Assembly (NCBI RefSeq): GCF_025770785.1
Contig: NZ_JANZLA010000001.1
Location: 558,001 to 622,000, forward strand
Length of the DNA stretch: 64,000 nt
Direction of reading: 5' to 3'
Origin: Cellulomonas sp. SG140
GTDB taxonomy: Bacteria > Actinomycetota > Actinomycetes > Actinomycetales > Cellulomonadaceae
The notes under the pieces are model-generated. The model searched no databases and was not told where the DNA came from. It was given only the letters and a program-made list of their open reading frames with translations. How positions within the stretch are numbered: position 1 is the stretch's first letter; the number at the start of each line of letters is the position of its first letter. This document shows positions 11,513 to 34,668 of this stretch, piece by piece. Made by a program: the position numbers and the translations under genes.

Positions 11513-12349
11513 TCAGCGCTTCTTGCCGGTGCGCCGACGGCGCACGATGAGCTTGTCGCTCGGCTTGTTCGGACGACGGGTACGACCCTCGGGCTGGCCC
11601 CAGGGGCTGACCGGGTGACGGCCACCGGACGTCTTGCCCTCACCACCACCGTGCGGGTGGTCGATCGGGTTCATCGCGACACCGCGGACGGTCGGGCGCT
11701 TGCCCTTCCAGCGCATGCGGCCGGCCTTGCCCCAGTTGATGTTCGACTGCTCGGCGTTGCCGACCTCGCCGATCGTCGCGCGGCAGCGCAGGTCGACGTT
11801 GCGGATCTCGCCGGACGGCATGCGCAGCTGGGCGTACGGCCCGTCCTTGGCGACGAGCTGCACCGAGGCACCCGCGGAGCGGGCGATCTTCGCGCCGCCG
11901 CCGGGCCGCAGCTCGATGGCGTGGATGATCGTGCCGGTGGGGATGTTGCGCAGCGGCAGGTTGTTGCCCGGCTTGATGTCCGCCGTGGCACCGGCCTCGA
12001 CGAGGTCGCCCTGGTTCAGCCGGTTCGGCGCGAGGATGTAGCGCTTCTCGCCGTCGGCGTAGTGCAGGAGCGCGATGCGCGCCGTGCGGTTGGGGTCGTA
12101 CTCGATGTGCGCGACCTTGGCCGGCACGCCGTCCTTGTCGTGGCGACGGAAGTCGATCACCCGGTACGCCCGCTTGTGACCGCCGCCGTGGTGGCGGGTC
12201 GTCACGCGACCGGTCGAGTTGCGACCGCCCGACTTGGTCAGCGGACGGACCAGCGACTTCTCCGGCTCGGAGCGCGTCAGCTCGACGAAGTCGGCCACGC
12301 TCGAGCCACGACGGCCCGGCGTCGTCGGCTTGTACTTACGGATTCCCAT
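11513..12349 (-). CDS. rplB: 50S ribosomal protein L2
   Basis: L2 is needed for subunit joining and the peptidyl-transferase centre. The 278-residue sequence starts [20 protein letters not shown] and includes the essential [18 protein letters not shown] segment with its conserved His. The longer open frame upstream is not part of the family. Confidence 0.97.
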
Positions 12350-12371
12350 GTCAGTAGTCCTCTCGGGCCGC

Positions 12372-12674
12372 TCAGCCGACCGGTCCGCCGAAGATGTCGA
12401 TCGAACCCTCGCGGAGGGTGACGACCGCACGCTTCGTGGCCTTGCGACGACCGATGCCGAACCGGGTCCGGCGGGCCTTGCCCTGCCGGTTGGCGGTGTT
12501 GACCGAGTCGACCTTGACGCCGAAGACCTGCTCGACGGCGATCTTGATCTCGGTCTTGTTGGCGCGCGGGTCGACGAGGAACGTGTACTTGCCCTCGTCG
12601 AGCAGGCCGTAGCTCTTCTCCGAGACCACCGGGGCGATCAGGATGTCGCGCGGGTCCTTGCCGACGGTGCTCAC
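12372..12674 (-). CDS. rplW: 50S ribosomal protein L23
   Basis: L23 docks trigger factor and SRP at the tunnel exit. The 100-residue protein uses a GTG start that overlaps the rplD stop as GTGA. It reads [20 protein letters not shown] and ends with the beta-rich core. Read-through from the longer frame upstream is a shadow. Confidence 0.95.
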
Positions 12675-13336
12675 TTGGTCTCCTCCTTGGCGGCCGCGGT
12701 GCCGGCGAGGAACGCGTCGAGCGCACCCTGCGTGAACACCACGTCGTCGCTGACGAGCACGTCGTAGGTGTTCAGCTGGTCGGAGACCAGCAGGTGCACC
12801 CGCTCGACGTTGCGCAGCGACTTCCACGTGATCTCGTCGGCCCGCTCCACGACCACCAGGACGTTCTTGCGGCCCGACAGGTTGTCGAGGACCTTGATGG
12901 CGGCCTTGGTCGACGGCGCCTCGCCCGGGGCGAACCCGGTGACGACGTGCACACGACCCGCACGGGCGCGGTCCGAGAGAGCACCGCGGAGCGCCGCGGC
13001 CTTCATCTTCTTCGGGGTCCGCTGGCTGTAGTCACGCGGCTGCGGGCCGTGGACGGTGCCACCGCCGGCGAACTGCGGCGCACGCGTCGAGCCCTGACGG
13101 GCACGGCCGGTGCCCTTCTGCTTGTACGGCTTCTTGCCACCACCGGACACCTCGCCACGAGTCTTCGTGGCGTGCGTGCCCTGGCGTGCCGCCGCGAGCT
13201 GCGCGACGACGACCTGGTGGATCAGCGGGACGTTGGTCTGCACGTCGAAGACGGTGCCGGGCAGGTCGGCCGTGCCGGCCTTGTTGCCCTCGGCGTCCAG
13301 GACGTCGACGGTCAGCGTGTCACTCATCGTGGTCAC
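12671..13336 (-). CDS. rplD: 50S ribosomal protein L4
   Basis: L4 reaches into the exit tunnel; in E. coli it also represses the S10 operon. The 221-residue sequence carries the tunnel loop [20 protein letters not shown] and the [19 protein letters not shown] segment. Start choice lies between GTG at 13336, which overlaps the rplC stop as GTGA and has GAAGG at good spacing, and ATG at 13327. The GTG is preferred. Confidence 0.95.
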
Positions 13337-28857: not shown

Positions 28858-31485
28858 TCAGACGGGGGCGCCGAACACCTGCAGCGGGACGTGCCGGCCG
28901 GTGGCAGCCAGGTCCTCGGCCGTGGCCCGGGCCAGGGCCGGGGCGATCGGCTCCCCGTCGCGGAGCAGCTGGTGCGCGCGCGTCATCACCCGGATCGCCG
29001 TGTCGTCGGGCAGCGGCGCCGTCGCGGCGACCACGGCACCGACACCCGTCCGCAGCAGCACGCTCGCCATGCCGAGGGCCTCGCCGCCGGCGCGCACGCT
29101 CGTACGGCCGACCTCGCACGACGAGAGGACCACCAGGTGCGGTGGGCTGCCGCCGGCGTCGAGCTCGTGCGCGAACAGCGGACCGTCGGCCAGGCGGACC
29201 GAGGAGAACAGCGGGTTGTCCGGCTCGTGCCGGCCGTGGGCGGCCAGGTGCACGATTCCCGGGGACCCGAGCAGCTCCACCATCCGCCCCACGGTCGCCT
29301 GCTCCCCGACCAGCGCGTTCGCGGACGGCCACAGGCCCGCGACCCGGCGGGCCTCGTCCTCGCCGTGCACCAGGCCCGGTCCCGCCGCGGCGGTCACCCG
29401 TTCCGGACGGCGCGGCGCGCCGCCCGCATGCGTGAGCCAGTGGCGCACCGAGGGCGCCACGACCGTCGGCAGACCACGCCGCGTCGGCAGCATCGCCCAG
29501 GGCACCAGGCCGAGCCACCCTCCGGCGACGACGACCAGCTCGGCACCGCCCTCGTCGACCACCGCGCCCAGCCTGCGCTGCAGCGCCTCGAGCCCCTCGG
29601 CCAGGGACCGGGCGGCCGCCGCGCGCAGGTCGCGCGGCACGAGGGGGTTCGCCAGCACCTCCAGGTCCGCGTGCACCCGGTGCACGTGCTCCCGCAACGG
29701 CGCGGCGTCGCCGAGCCTGCGAAGACGGAGGCCCGACGCGTCGGCACGCACCCCGAGCACCTCGCCGCGGTGCTCGACCACGTCCACCAGGACCGCACCG
29801 GGGCGGTCGGAGAGCGCGCGCCGCACCTCCGCCGACCGGGCCGCACGGTCGTCCGCCAGACGCCCCTGCTCGTGCCACGAGCGCGCCAGGATCTCGTGCT
29901 GCAGGCGGCGGCTGTCGGCCAGCAGCCGGTCACGTCCCGGGTCGCTGGCCGGACGGCCCTGGAGGTTGCGGTTCTCGGCGACCAGCTGGCGCAGCTCGGT
30001 GAGCAGCGTCGCGGTGACGGGGTCCTCCGGTGGCGTGACCCGCGGTGTGCCTCCGATCACCGCACGCACACGCTCCACCGCGTCCAGCACGGATCCCGGG
30101 CGGCCGGTGGCGGTGGCGAGCTGAAGGTCCAGGTCGGCCAGGGCGGTGCCGTGCACCGCGCCGGCCGTGCGCAGGTCGAGCGAGCCGAACCGGGCCCGGT
30201 GCACGCGCAGGTCCCGCTGGCCGGCGCGCACGTCGCGGACCGCGGCCTCGCGCCGGCCTGCCGCGAGCTGGAGGAGGGCTCGGACACGGCGCGCCTGGAG
30301 CCGTACGGCGATCGGCGCCTCGACCGGCACGGGGCCGAGCAGCTCGAGGGTCGCCGCCGGGTCCTCGCAGGCACCGCGGGCGAGATCCGCCTCGACCCGG
30401 AGGCACGCGGCACTGAGCGCCCACAGCGGTCGCCCGGTCTGCCGGCACAGCTCCTCGACGCGGGCGGCCCGGCGCGACACCGAGGCCCACCGTCGACGCA
30501 GCGCGGCGTCGCGCGAGGGTTCCGCGGCCAGGAGAGCCGCGTCGGCCTGCAGCTCGCCGAGCGTCGCCCGCACCACCCACGTCTCGTCGCCCCTGCGGCG
30601 GAAGAGGTGCCGAGCCGCGGCCGCGTGCTGCCGAGCCGCCGCCGAGTCGCCACGCACGGCCGCGCACTCCGCCCGGCCCAGCTCGCACTCCCCCACGTCG
30701 TGCGGCAGGTGCTGGTCCGCGAACTGGGCGGCCGCCTCCGCGAAGGTGCGGTCCGCGACCTGGACCAGGCCCGCCTCGAGCAGCACGAGAGCGCGGTCGA
30801 GGAGCGCGATGGGCCACTGACCCGGCATCGTGCGGGCGGCCGCCTCCATCCGCGCGAGCGCCTGCGGCAGCCGACCGGCGTAGAGCTCCAGGTGGCCGCG
30901 GTTGTGCTCGGCCTTGAACTGCAGGCGGGCGAACCCCTCGGCACGCGCCCGCCGAGCGCACTCGGCGTAGTCCGCACGCGCCTGCGCGAGCTCGCGACGC
31001 TCGGCGTGGGCGACGCCGCGGTTCAGCAGCATGCGGCAGGCGTCCAGCGGCTCGGCGTCGGCGATGTGCGTCACAGCGGTGTCCAGCCAGGTCAGCGCCT
31101 CGTCGAGCCGACCCGCGCGCAGCGCGAGCAGACCGTGCAGGCCGGCCACCGCGGGCCGTAGCCCCGGCCACCCGGCGCCCGACGCCTGCGACCGGTGGCC
31201 GGCCTGGGCCTCCACCATCTCGTCGAGCCGCTCGACCGGGGCGTCGGCGCTGCCCTGCGTCTCGAACTCGCTGCGTGCGAGCTCCATCAACGCCCAGGCG
31301 CGCACGCGGACCACGTCCGGGTCCCCGTCCGGAACGGTGTCCAGCGCCCGAAGCACCGGGAGCAGACGACGGCGGGCTCGTGCCGGCCGGCCCTCGGCGT
31401 TCTCCTGTTCCGCCTCCCGCACGCGCAGCGTCAGCTCCGCCAGGTCCGGCGACCCGGCCTGCGCCGGGGCACCGGTGGGGCACAT
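28858..31485 (-). CDS. TPR-CHAT caspase-like protease
   Basis: This 875-residue protein has no signal peptide. The first 550 or so residues are Ala/Arg/Leu-rich helical repeats of TPR type. The last 260 or so form a CHAT domain (caspase HetF associated with TPRs). The catalytic pair is visible: His750 in [10 protein letters not shown] and Cys790 in VVLSSCEVG, followed by [24 protein letters not shown] proteins are cysteine peptidases of the caspase fold that usually act on a specific partner after activation. It is the third gene of an operon: its ATG is 4 nt past the stop of the 167-residue protein, which overlaps the sigma-factor gene. That partner is therefore a plausible substrate (inference). 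Confidence 0.85.
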
Positions 31486-31489
31486 CCGG

Positions 31490-31993
31490 CTACAGCTCGA
31501 TCTGCGGGGTCACGATCGGCACGGTGGGCTCGGCCGGACGGCGCAGGACGAACCTCGCCGGTCCGCGCTCCACGTCCGAGAACGAGAACCGGCCGTCCGC
31601 GTTCGAGCTGGTCACGACGACGTCGCCGTGCTGGTGCAGCTCGACCGTCAGCAGTCCCGCCGGGGCGGCCCAGCCGTCCACCCGCAACCGGTCCCCCTCC
31701 GGGTGCACGGAGACCATCACCGTCAGGACGTCGGTGGTGAAGGTGATGGTGCCGGCCTCGATGCTGGTCTCGTCGGCGCGCACGGCGCCTGCCGCCTCGC
31801 CGACCAGGTGCAGCTCGGCCACCTCGGCGTGCAGCGCCTCGACGGTCAGCGCGATGCCGATCCGTTCCACCAGGCCGGCCGGGACGGGGTCGACCGCGTC
31901 GACCAGGGCGTCGAGCCGGCGCAGCACCTCGAGGTCGAGCTCGTCGAGCGGGGCGTCGGCGAGTGCCTCGAGGTCACGGCCGTCGGCGTTCAC
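31490..31993 (-). CDS. Small acidic/beta-sandwich protein linking sigma factor and CHAT protease
   Basis: This 167-residue protein starts at a GTG whose GTGA overlaps the stop of the sigma-factor gene. The first 70 or so residues are acidic and probably helical (DLEALADAPLDELDLEVLRR, then LVERIGIALTVEALHAEVAEL). Residues 80-155 are beta-rich and resemble a carboxypeptidase-regulatory or transthyretin-like module (TITFTTDVLTVMVSV; NADGRFSFSDVERGPARFVL). There is no signal peptide or membrane helix. I do not recognise a named family. Position and coupling suggest a partner of the sigma factor, perhaps an anti-sigma-like adaptor or the CHAT substrate. The frame also extends upstream into the sigma gene, but only the GTG start fits. 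Confidence 0.7.
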   Translation of the reverse strand: MNADGRDLEALADAPLDELDLEVLRRLDALVDAVDPVPAGLVERIGIALTVEALHAEVAELHLVGEAAGAVRADETSIEAGTITFTTDVLTVMVSVHPEGDRLRVDGWAAPAGLLTVELHQHGDVVVTSSNADGRFSFSDVERGPARFVLRRPAEPTVPIVTPQIEL

Positions 31994-32622
31994 ACCAGGC
32001 TCCACGTGGGATCGGAGGTGAGCGCCTGGCGGAGCTTGGCCAGGCAGCGACCGCGCGTCGGCCCGATGCTCCCGACCGGCATGCCGAGGGAACGGGACAC
32101 GACGGCGTAGTCGGGTCGGTCGACCGTCGCCACCAGCCCGAGCAGCTGCCGGCAACGCTCGGGGAGCTCCCGCACGTGCCGCCACAGCGCCCGGTCGCGC
32201 TCGTCCCGCACGGCGACGACGTCGGGCAGCTGGTCCGCAGGGGCGGCGAGCCAGTCGGTCACCGTCTCGTCCTGCTGCTGGCGCACCAGGTCGTCGCGGC
32301 TGCGGCGGACCGCCCGCCATGCCGCCCGGCGCGCGGTGACGAGCATCCACTGCAGCGTGGCGCGGGGGTCGCGGATCGTCTCGATGTCGCGCACCAGCGT
32401 GAGCCACACGTTCTGGACGACGTCCTGAGCCTGCTCCGGATCCGCACCCTGCGCGCGCACCGTGTGCCACAGCAAGGGCGTCATCACCTCGACGAGCTCG
32501 GCGAGCGGGGCACGGTCACCGGCGCGATAGGCGAGCACGGCGTGCGCCGCACGGAGCGCGAGCCCCTGCTCGTGGTCGCGGAGCCCGGCCTCGACCGGTC
32601 CCACCACCTCGTCACTCATCAT
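31990..32622 (-). CDS. Sigma-70 family (ECF-like) RNA polymerase sigma factor
   Basis: The 210-residue protein has only regions 2 and 4. Region 2 includes AQDVVQNVWLTLVRDIETIR and LQWMLVTARRAAWRAVRRSR. Region 4 is near the C-terminus (LPERCRQLLGLVATVDRPDY, then VGSIGPTRGRCLAKLRQAL). It would direct RNA polymerase to a set of promoters that cannot be told from here. Two adjacent ATGs are possible; the second (32619) has the better spacing to GAGGGG. No transmembrane anti-sigma gene follows. Instead the operon continues with the 167-residue protein and the CHAT protease. The promoter in front looks vegetative, with no ECF-type GGAAC box. Confidence 0.88.
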   Translation of the reverse strand: MMSDEVVGPVEAGLRDHEQGLALRAAHAVLAYRAGDRAPLAELVEVMTPLLWHTVRAQGADPEQAQDVVQNVWLTLVRDIETIRDPRATLQWMLVTARRAAWRAVRRSRDDLVRQQQDETVTDWLAAPADQLPDVVAVRDERDRALWRHVRELPERCRQLLGLVATVDRPDYAVVSRSLGMPVGSIGPTRGRCLAKLRQALTSDPTWSLV

Positions 32623-32667
32623 CGACCCCTCGCACGTGTCCTCGGCGGGTGGCCGCCCCTGCCGTGC

Positions 32668-32697
32668 AGACTAGGACGACCCGGACAACCCCGACAA
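32668..32697 (-). promoter_or_regulatory. Promoter of the sigma-CHAT operon
   Basis: On the minus strand TTGTCG (complement of 32692-32697) and TAGTCT (complement of 32668-32673) are spaced by 18 bp. It predicts a 40-nt leader with the GAGGGG ribosome site. The divergent protease gene begins about 220 nt away. No second clear promoter is seen for that gene in 32698-32919. Confidence 0.55.
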
Positions 32698-32919
32698 GGA
32701 CGCAAGGGACCTCCGGCCCGTCGCGGTGCCCGCTCGCGACGGCGTCGACGTCCCCCACGTCCAGCCGCGTCGAACGTCAGGAGCGGCCGCGTCGCACGCA
32801 GATACACGACGCGGCGATCCCGCCCGCGAAACGGCCCTGTATCTGGCACGCCGCGGGATGCTCCTGTCGATCGCGTGGCGCCCCCGAGCCGCGCCTGAGC
32901 CATGAGGAGTGCGTACCCC

Positions 32920-34668
32920 ATGACCGCACCGGAGCGACCAGTGCCCTCGAGCCCGTCGCCGACCGTCGCTGCCCCGTCGGCGGCCGCCGAGCCGCCGGGG
33001 CGCGCCGAGCTGCGGCCGGTGAAGCGCGCAGCGGAGGACGCGCTGCTCGCGCGACCTGGCGTCGTCGGCGTCGACATCGCGGAGAAGCTCACCGGTGGCC
33101 GACCCTCCGGCGTGCTGGCGATCGTGGTCCACGTCGAGGTGAAGCGTGGCGCCGACGAGCTCGGCCCCGGGGAGCGCATCCCCGAGCAGATCGAGGGCGT
33201 GCCGACCGACGTCGTGGTGCACCACGTCGGGCTCGAGCCGACGGCGCCCCCGCCGGTCAGCCCGGAGCGGTTCCGGCCCCTCGCCGGCGGCATGTCGATC
33301 GGCCCCCTGGACCCCGTCACGCTGCCGTCCGACGAGGGCGCCCGGCTCCGGTCCGTGAACGGCACGCTCGGGCTGCTGGTGACCGAGCCCGGGACGGACC
33401 GCACGCTGGCCCTGACGAACTGGCACGTGGCCGCCGGTGACGGCCTCGAGGACGTCGGCAGCGCCTGGGTGCAGCCGGCGGTCGCCGACGGCGGGTCCCG
33501 GGCCGACCGGTTCGGCTCGCTGGCGCGTGGCGTGCTGACGGAACGCGTCGACGCGGCCGTGGTCGCCCTCGCACCGGGAGCGCGGTGGACGCCCGCCGTC
33601 GTCGGCATCGGAGCCGTGACCGGCTGGGCCTACGCGGAGGTCGGCACAACCGTGCGCAAGCACGGACGCACCACGGGTCTGACGTCCGGCGTGGTCGCGT
33701 CGACCGACCTGACCGTCAAGGTCGACTTCGGCCCCGGCACGGGGCCGAAGATCCTCCGCGACCAGCTGCGGATCGAACCGGCGCCGGGCACCTCGCGGTT
33801 CTCGGCCGGCGGCGACTCCGGCTCGGCCGTGGTGGACCTGCAGGGCCGGGTGGTCGGGCTGCACTGGTCCGCCGAGGACGACGGCAGCTTCGCCGTGTCC
33901 AGCCCCATCGACGTGGTCCTGGCGACGCTCGGCGTCCAGGTGGCCACGCCGGCATCAGTCGCAGCGACCGCCGCGCGTCGCGCCGCGCAGGCCCGGCTGG
34001 TGGCGTCGATCCGGCGGGACGTCCTGCTGCCGCCGATCGAGGCGGCGTTCGGGATGGGTGGCGGCGGAGCGCGTCCGACGGCACCCGGAGGCGGTGCGGC
34101 CACGGACGGTGTGCGTACCGGAGGTCCAGGGGCGGCGCCGGCGGCCCGAGTCAGCGCCGCGTCGACCGGGGAGGACGTGACGTCGGCCGTGCGACCGGAG
34201 GCCGCGACGGAACCCTTCACCGAACCGTTCACGGAGCCCTTCACCGAACCGTTCACCGAGTCAACGGCCCAGCCGTTCACCGAGCCGTTCACCGAGCCGT
34301 TCACGGAACCGTTCACGGAACCCTTCACCGAGGCCGCGGCCCAACCGTTCACCGAGCCCTTCACGGAACCGTTCACGGAGCCCTTCACCGAGCCGTTCAC
34401 CGAGGCCGCGGCCCAGCCGTTCACCGAGCCGTTCACGGAACCGGTCTCCGACGCGGCGGCTCAGCCGTTCACCGAACCCTTCACGGAGCCGTTCACCGAA
34501 CCGGTCGCCGCCACGGTCACGGAACCGTTCACCGAACCGTTCACCGAGGCCTCGGGTGTGTGGGCCGCCGACCCCGCCGTCCGCGCACGCGCCGTCGCCA
34601 CGCTGCGGCTGCGCCGGGCGTTCTGGGAGGGCTGGATGGCGGGCCTGCGACAGAGCCGGCGTCGATGA
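32920..34668 (+). CDS. Cytoplasmic trypsin-like serine protease with TEPF repeat tail
   Basis: The 582-residue protein starts at ATG 32920, with GAGGAG 10 nt upstream; an ATG six codons earlier lacks a ribosome site. Residues 25-110 form a conserved N-terminal module often seen before bacterial trypsin-like domains (PGVVGVDIAEK, LAIVVHVEVK, GVPTDVV). The protease domain follows with a complete triad: His169 in TNWHV, Asp211 in RVDAAVVAL and Ser300 in GGDSGSAVV. Residues 430-543 are about 21 TEPF-like units. The last 35 residues are a basic helix (RAVATLRLRRAFWEGWMAGL). There is no signal peptide, so it acts inside the cell. It is divergent from the sigma-CHAT operon and probably belongs to the same system. 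Confidence 0.8.
   Translation: MTAPERPVPSSPSPTVAAPSAAAEPPGRAELRPVKRAAEDALLARPGVVGVDIAEKLTGGRPSGVLAIVVHVEVKRGADELGPGERIPEQIEGVPTDVVVHHVGLEPTAPPPVSPERFRPLAGGMSIGPLDPVTLPSDEGARLRSVNGTLGLLVTEPGTDRTLALTNWHVAAGDGLEDVGSAWVQPAVADGGSRADRFGSLARGVLTERVDAAVVALAPGARWTPAVVGIGAVTGWAYAEVGTTVRKHGRTTGLTSGVVASTDLTVKVDFGPGTGPKILRDQLRIEPAPGTSRFSAGGDSGSAVVDLQGRVVGLHWSAEDDGSFAVSSPIDVVLATLGVQVATPASVAATAARRAAQARLVASIRRDVLLPPIEAAFGMGGGGARPTAPGGGAATDGVRTGGPGAAPAARVSAASTGEDVTSAVRPEAATEPFTEPFTEPFTEPFTESTAQPFTEPFTEPFTEPFTEPFTEAAAQPFTEPFTEPFTEPFTEPFTEAAAQPFTEPFTEPVSDAAAQPFTEPFTEPFTEPVAATVTEPFTEPFTEASGVWAADPAVRARAVATLRLRRAFWEGWMAGLRQSRRR
34207..34548 (+). repeat. Coding 12-bp repeat array (TEPF units)
   Basis: The DNA is built from 12-bp units of the type TTCACCGAACCG with synonymous changes. 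Four units followed by TEAAAQPF (or TESTAQPF) make a higher-order block of 24 residues (72 bp), clear for the first three blocks and partial after. All units keep frame. Such an array can change length by slippage or recombination. Confidence 0.9.

Follow-up and report, generated by a model that had tools for sequence, protein, structure and literature searches.

The 64,000-nucleotide (nt) window analysed here, from Cellulomonas sp. SG140 (contig NZ_JANZLA010000001.1, positions 558,001 to 622,000), carries between the ribosomal protein genes rplA and rplJ a module of an extracytoplasmic function (ECF) sigma factor (SIG), a small partner (SML), a protease that joins tetratricopeptide repeats (TPR) to a CHAT domain (CHAT), and a serine protease with a tandem peptide array, here of trypsin fold (TRY). 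We read this module as a protease-controlled sigma switch, of which the peptide array is an element new to us. With a probability of roughly one half, and judging from sequence comparison, the array would dock the serine protease on the TPR-CHAT protein, upstream of SML and the sigma factor, and the two proteases together would decide the fate of SML and hence that of the sigma factor. The TPR part is most likely what reads the array.

In the proposed mechanism, the serine protease, mostly of the subtilisin type (S8) and of trypsin fold in the clade of the window, would display many copies of one short peptide, on which the TPR superhelix of the TPR-CHAT protein would dock. The array could then link the two proteases to each other, as a password particular to the lineage. 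Once the serine protease is triggered by some signal, the dock would be cut or rearranged, the CHAT caspase would act, and SML would be removed from the sigma factor, the order of who cuts whom being presumptive. The freed sigma factor would transcribe the operon and the protease gene from promoters of the form TGTATCwGG-N14-CTCC.

The locus

All four open reading frames (ORFs) were confirmed, SIG, SML and CHAT as an operon and TRY divergently, with rplJ and rplL on one flank and rplA and rplK on the other. The tight packing described in the initial annotation was borne out: the SIG stop and the SML start overlap in GTGA, and 4 nt separate SML from CHAT. The 21 PFTE units of TRY, the subtilisin found instead of it in most of the family loci, and the divergent pair of promoter-like motifs had gone unnoticed in that annotation. 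The main features of the locus are as follows.

28858..31485, minus strand: CHAT, the TPR-CHAT protease (875 residues; TPR superhelix at about residues 15-480, CHAT domain at 635-856, with H746, H750 and C790)
30046..31443, minus strand: TPR half of the CHAT protein (residues 15-480; covariation with the array unit at about residues 61-330; includes N155, K191 and N195)
31490..31993, minus strand: SML, small partner (167 residues, GTG start, C-terminal TPQIEL; candidate anti-sigma factor)
31990..32622, minus strand: SIG, ECF sigma factor (210 residues; TIGR02937)
32902..34668, plus strand: TRY, trypsin-fold protease (588 residues; NWHVA at 173, VDAAV at 216, GGDSGS at 303)
34213..34548, plus strand: peptide array in TRY (21 PFTE units in residues 438-549 with short interruptions, then an AFWEGWM tail)

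The largest 19-residue hydropathy mean was 1.68 in the CHAT protein (residue 803, within the CHAT domain) and 1.28, 0.69 and 1.58 in the other three proteins, and the four maxima therefore give no clear pointer to a membrane helix. The genome holds a single CHAT match.

Serine proteases and their peptide arrays

We read 42 loci of the family set (40 family stretches and two more) and 40 distant stretches from order and class draws; single loci are cited by number. Within the 40 family loci, a subtilisin stands between SML and CHAT in 30, eight have TRY, and two have neither (L043, L069); TRY is also present in L001 and in the window. Pfam placed a Peptidase_S8 domain in 6/6 scanned proteases of relatives, and the S8 triad motifs are well kept (GHGTF and SGTSF[AS] in 31/31, the Asp motif in 30/31). 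The window TRY scores 27.7 bits against Trypsin_2, just above the cut-off of 27.6, and has the His, Asp and Ser motifs; among nine TRYs checked by pattern, GDSGS was found in nine, the His motif in seven and the Asp motif in four, the misses not having been inspected. Of the 121 family genomes, 10 have a close TRY relative (E<1e-70), in each case next to SML, and 61 others have only weaker matches (E 5.7e-28 to 1e-10); the trypsin was accordingly rejected as a conserved fourth gene. TRY is a local exception, a stand-in for the subtilisin.

Both proteases are adjacent in L134, where a TRY relative (11615-13228) lies beside an S8 with a WGDGIG array. The C-terminal part of that TRY relative carries a different repetition, cysteine-bearing and TRPxxC-like.

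The S8 array directly precedes the catalytic domain and consists of 3-10 copies of a unit that is mostly six residues long, examples being PYTQPF, PFTQSH, PYTDPH, PYSTPL, NPFHST, YGDGVG, PYWDPV, NPYGTRT, NPFTRS and PFIETN. By score, a clear tandem array is present in 37 of 63 S8s (18/30 in the family, 18/32 in the distant set, and L002). The remaining distant S8s comprise three with imperfect or spaced copies (L131, L145, L150), one that is cut off (L135) and ten without an array. In the clade of the window, 10/10 TRYs carry a PFTE or PFTQ array towards the C-terminus, mostly followed by an AFWxGY-like tail.

Within one array the units resemble each other despite differing codons, and between lineages the unit changes. 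Over 47 arrays, the mean differences between units were 0.47 for synonymous (pS) and 0.005 for non-synonymous changes (pN), a set that includes an acidic run in L071 (pS and pN 0) which lies off the array site and was dropped from the covariation set. The high pS argues that most copies are not recent duplications; those of L068 and L072 (pS 0.05 and 0.07) may be fresh ones. The low pN was not taken as proof, because self-similarity was what the search selected for and PFT served as the cutting point for TRY units. When 995 ORFs of the loci, selected by third-position GC content (GC3), were screened, 41 of the 45 arrays fell in S8 or TRY, and two of the four unrelated arrays had a pS near 0.5. 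The interrupted TRY arrays of L034, L037 and L038 were read out of phase in this screen, which gave a false high pN.

Covariation of the array with the TPR half

For the 37 S8-array loci, distances between units were compared with those of six protein parts, with the other five controlled for in each case. For L002, L044 and L045 the units were assigned manually; units longer than six residues were cut to six and a five-residue one was padded. The partial correlation with the unit was 0.45 for the S8 catalytic domain, 0.32 for the TPR half and -0.04 for the CHAT domain, with -0.09 for the S8 N-terminal part, -0.10 for SML and -0.21 for SIG. Within the family (18 loci), the TPR half reached 0.62 and all other parts stayed at or below 0.07.

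As a null, units were evolved on a tree built from the CHAT domain, the S8 catalytic domain, SML and SIG, with 400 simulations each; the resulting P values were preferred over those of label permutation because the latter ignores the tree. The simulations rest on a single tree and a single substitution model, at a rate that leaves units 0.68 apart on average where 0.75 was observed. P for the TPR half was 0.005 overall and 0.010 within the family, and for the S8 catalytic domain 0.0025 overall (the floor of 400 simulations) and 0.61 within the family. The highest values in sliding windows lay at TPR residues 61-330; in the family, the 571-630 window also passed the line. A per-column scan placed residue 198 of the window protein first, and TPR columns made up 15 of the top 20 against 427 of 778 overall, a modest excess.

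The class-wide link between the unit and the S8 catalytic domain (0.45, P 0.0025) fits another explanation, in which the units are cleavage sites for processing of the serine protease, by itself or otherwise, so that the enzyme is released from the N-terminal part or, for TRY, from the C-terminal tail. The position of the S8 array, after the N-terminal part and before the catalytic domain, would suit such processing, which many copies would make certain. Moreover, in a rotation chosen for this, 31/37 units read P and then F, Y, W, M or L, and P-F/Y would suit cleavage by a subtilisin-like enzyme. However, the S8 catalytic domain loses its correlation within the family (0.07, P 0.61, against 0.62 for the TPR half), array-less S8s retain the triad motifs, and self-cleavage leaves unexplained why the TPR asparagines described below are lost where the protease or the array is missing. 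We regard self-cleavage as unlikely, and as the main rival of docking, with which it could hold together.

The array could also be a low-complexity linker that arose by repeat expansion, with the TPR correlation as residual phylogeny. Expansion comes easily to tandem repeats, a low pN is partly built into a score that favours self-similar arrays, and the ORF screen also yielded the four unrelated arrays, two of them with pS near 0.5. Against this stand the gap between pS and pN in copies that are mostly not recent, the concentration of arrays in S8 and TRY, and a TPR signal that rises above the simulated-tree null and is missing in the CHAT half of the same protein. A mere linker therefore appears distinctly unlikely.

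Residues of the TPR half

Two asparagines of the TPR half are kept in nearly all systems with an array. N155 and N195 are both present in 10/10 TRY systems, and among 35 S8-array systems N155 is found in 33 and N195 in 34 (L144 is unaligned there; L151 has D at 155). Both are absent from 3/3 systems without a serine protease (L043, L069, L167); in L043 and L069, where SIG, SML and CHAT stand without either protease, both asparagines are replaced. Residue 191 is K or R in 10/10 TRY, 25/35 S8-array and 0/13 array-less family proteins. L131, L135, L145 and L150 were tabulated as array-less and keep both asparagines.

A TPR segment, FKAxHNLGYLEFLAG with small changes, is common to the TRY systems and to many S8 systems with P(F/Y)T units, and the window protein deviates from it most. 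The shared segment would agree with the trypsin having adopted a password which the TPR part already knew. A fuller proposal seems to us somewhat less likely than not: each lineage would have its own peptide password, kept as identical copies in one protease and read by the TPR-caspase of the same operon, both changing together; it would have moved from subtilisin to trypsin, would control a sigma factor and might release intracellular signal peptides. Such a password, if real, would keep the protease pair specific, and it raises the question of why this specificity is needed inside one cell.

Conservation and genomic setting

SIG, SML and CHAT occur together in 42/42 loci of the family set, CHAT being cut by the contig end in two, and SML is found in 78 of 121 family genomes and 17 of 25 genera. 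Both rplA and rplJ flank the module in 37/42 loci; three reach a contig end, and L002 and L066 are located elsewhere. The module recurs across other genera, families and orders: the SML profile has matches in 53 of 248 order-draw genomes and in 68 of 246 class-draw genomes, and CHAT (E<=1e-20) is present in 67/68 class-draw genomes with SML versus 21/178 without. In the 40 distant stretches, SIG stands beside SML in all 40, with CHAT in 33 and S8 in 32, in several gene orders; the rplA and rplJ profiles matched none of these stretches. The conserved co-occurrence of four genes, which the initial annotation proposed to look for, holds for SIG, SML and CHAT and fails for the trypsin.

The SIG-SML pair looks like the core of the module, because seven of the 40 distant pairs stand without a nearby CHAT (one stretch has an uncounted 23-bit match at its edge). 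Six of these seven genomes were covered by the class CHAT search, and 6/6 have CHAT elsewhere.

Some loci depart from the common arrangement. In L147, L152, L153, L155, L157, L163 and L165, SIG-SML has neither CHAT nor S8 nearby, and neighbour genes recur in several of them. Two tandem TPR-CHAT genes lie beside an array-less S8 in L049 (1427-7108) and L051 (10983-16579), and in L047 and L067 the CHAT similarity spans a stretch of double length.

An anti-phage or abortive system is very unlikely, defence having been first suggested for the locus as an alternative to stress. Passages of PMC7159879 and PMC8195603 place caspase-like and trypsin-like proteases in bacterial conflict systems, but PADLOC returned no match for the four proteins and the position between rplA and rplJ is kept in most family-set loci. 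Plasmid matches to CHAT amount to four records, none over more than 80% of the length, with the best in an 11.85 Mb record that is also the only one to match SML, and the phage match is one unannotated 7.5 kb faecal record. A mobile defence island was rejected on these same grounds.

The phage record, MT838002.1, matches TPR-CHAT over 69% of the query and may be bacterial DNA.

CHAT, SML and SIG

The window protein scores 90.7 bits against the Pfam CHAT domain (1.5e-25; cut-off 24), and H746, H750 and C790 are invariant in 38 aligned proteins, in agreement with the earlier choice of C790 as the CHAT cysteine. By domain score and invariant His and Cys residues it is classed as a CHAT caspase-like peptidase, for which proteolysis is predicted. 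The TPR half was modelled well from three sequences and the CHAT half poorly. LGN was the best structural match of the TPR-half model, with bacterial peptide receptors among the others; this likeness is a hint only, because long TPR superhelices resemble one another. A weak Foldseek lead ranked DdvA, an anti-sigma factor, first and several separases next (TM score by query 0.19-0.30); a literature search on DdvA gave mostly texts in which those letters stand for something else.

SIG contains Sigma70_r2 (Pfam 6e-8, above cut-off), with no Pfam region-4 match listed, and matches TIGR02937 of NCBIfam at 50.5 bits over residues 40-201 (cut-off 42.9). The SIG-family profile (A3) matches solved ECF sigma factors. 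SML shows a weak Pfam likeness to CarboxypepD_reg (carboxypeptidase regulatory-like), shared by 33 of 39 relatives at E<=0.1. Its model has confident beta structure, a beta-sandwich, in the C-terminal half and N-terminal helices of low confidence, and the fold found no PDB match at E<=0.001. The SML gene adjoins the sigma gene in 42/42 family-set and 40/40 distant loci, in stretches centred on SML, which is a candidate anti-sigma factor.

The last residues of SML (TPQIEL in the window, 31490-31510) include T, P and E that are identical in at least 90% of 39 relatives.

In another reading, which follows the initial annotation, CHAT would cleave SML on a signal that arrives through the TPR part or the trypsin, with release of the sigma factor as in the Csx29/Csx30/CASP-sigma system and the array as a side feature. 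The similar cast of proteins described in passages of PMC10028731, the invariant CHAT residues, and the adjacent or overlapping SIG, SML and CHAT genes are consistent with this. Other results are less so: at E<=1 the SML profile (A1) found two PDB sequences, neither named Csx30, SML is weakly linked to the CHAT domain (partial correlation 0.19 for its N-terminal half and 0.04 for its C-terminal half), and SIG-SML pairs without CHAT within the stretch exist. We place this reading a little short of even odds; a CHAT cut in SML is itself compatible with docking, and both can be true together.

Promoter-like motifs

A motif TGTATCwGg, followed after 14-15 nt by CTCC, recurs upstream of the module, and in the window it faces both divergent transcripts. 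The common motif supports the earlier view that TRY belongs with the operon in the window.

32780..32806, minus strand: promoter-like motif TGTATCTGC...CTCC directed towards SIG, SML and CHAT (differs from the strict form by one change)
32838..32864, plus strand: promoter-like motif TGTATCTGG-N14-CTCC facing TRY
32668..32697, minus strand: housekeeping-like promoter TTGTCG-N18-TAGTCT upstream of SIG (similar in ten TRY-type loci, by eye)

Across 83 loci, TGTATCnG-N12-17-CYCC gave 38 matches, against 3.5 expected in all from two-base-block shuffles, and 29 of them lie in sense 20-500 nt before SIG (21), S8 (4) or TRY (4). Among the nine others, those of L001 and L148 face TRY and S8, just beyond the distance limits or start estimates. 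The 3.8 Mb genome holds one match to the strict motif and three to the relaxed one; the reversed control gave none. Through this shared motif SIG probably governs the operon it lies in as well as the protease gene.

The third relaxed match of the genome (contig 11, 335131-335155, L183) has no evident target gene. The motif also occurs outside the module genes at L141:13371, before a 269-residue likely membrane protein, and at L144:4557, L139:4743, L146:4357 and L170:1819, which perhaps mark further genes of the regulon.

Points against the docking proposal

Several observations weigh against docking. Over the class as a whole, the unit covaries more strongly with the S8 catalytic domain than with the TPR half, and the simulated P values depend on the single tree, model and rate given above. 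By score, 12 of the 30 family S8s have no array, some of them keeping two degenerate copies, and none is scored in the distant TRY relative of L134. N155 and N195 persist in all 13 array-less CHATs of the family, and the asparagines therefore do not depend on the array alone; both are absent from ten distant array-less S8 systems, which may be one deep lineage and are aligned with less certainty. K or R at residue 191 is found in only 25 of the 35 S8-array proteins. For SML, no recognised anti-sigma domain was found by Pfam or NCBIfam in the protein or its relatives, and its distance link to SIG is modest (partial correlations of 0.19 and 0.29 for the two SML halves). Finally, the strict motif lies near module genes in 27 of 83 loci (18/42 family, 9/41 distant).

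Comparison with known systems

Our literature search, with many subscription papers and bioRxiv preprints outside its coverage, found no publication on this module, and we know of no TPR-CHAT and sigma control module outside a CRISPR locus. If the proposal is true, such control would exist outside CRISPR and class-wide, and TPR-CHAT proteases would be general switches. A fast-changing, internally identical array together with a covarying receptor half would also offer natural matched pairs of peptide and receptor.

In type III-E systems, according to passages of PMC10028731, Csx30 binds and inhibits CASP-sigma and Csx29 cleaves Csx30. The likeness drawn to this system in the initial annotation is apt, in that the cast is similar (TPR-CHAT, small partner, sigma factor) and the TPR-CHAT architecture alike. 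The module here differs by its array-bearing serine protease and, in the family, by ribosomal genes as neighbours. None of the 40 PDB sequences that the TPR-CHAT profile (A2) matched at E<=0.01, which are TPR, helical-repeat and designed proteins, bears the name Csx29; Csx29 was likewise not among the matches listed in the PDB profile and structure searches, which excludes nothing. No support for a CRISPR link was found, Cas genes including Cas7-11 not having been searched for.

Compared with the Rap, NprR, PlcR and AimR receptors, the proposed ligand here is a protease-borne array, and the putative receptor is fused to CHAT. One Rap-type chain matched in the TPR part (E 1.1e-5) among many TPR proteins, the remaining likeness being one of fold; it may be general to long TPR superhelices, and LGN scores higher.

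Caspase neighbourhoods with ECF sigma genes are described in passages of PMC8195603 and have in common with our module a caspase domain, an ECF sigma gene and a TPR protein. They differ in other domains (EACC2, TRADD-N, DUF1822), and those passages mention no array-bearing subtilisin. Conflict operons with trypsin and subtilisin domains (PMC7159879) and nuclease-protease pairs (PMC12799240), as far as the relevant passages describe them, share trypsin- or subtilisin-type proteases in operons with the module of the window, with nucleases as the partners there and a sigma factor here.

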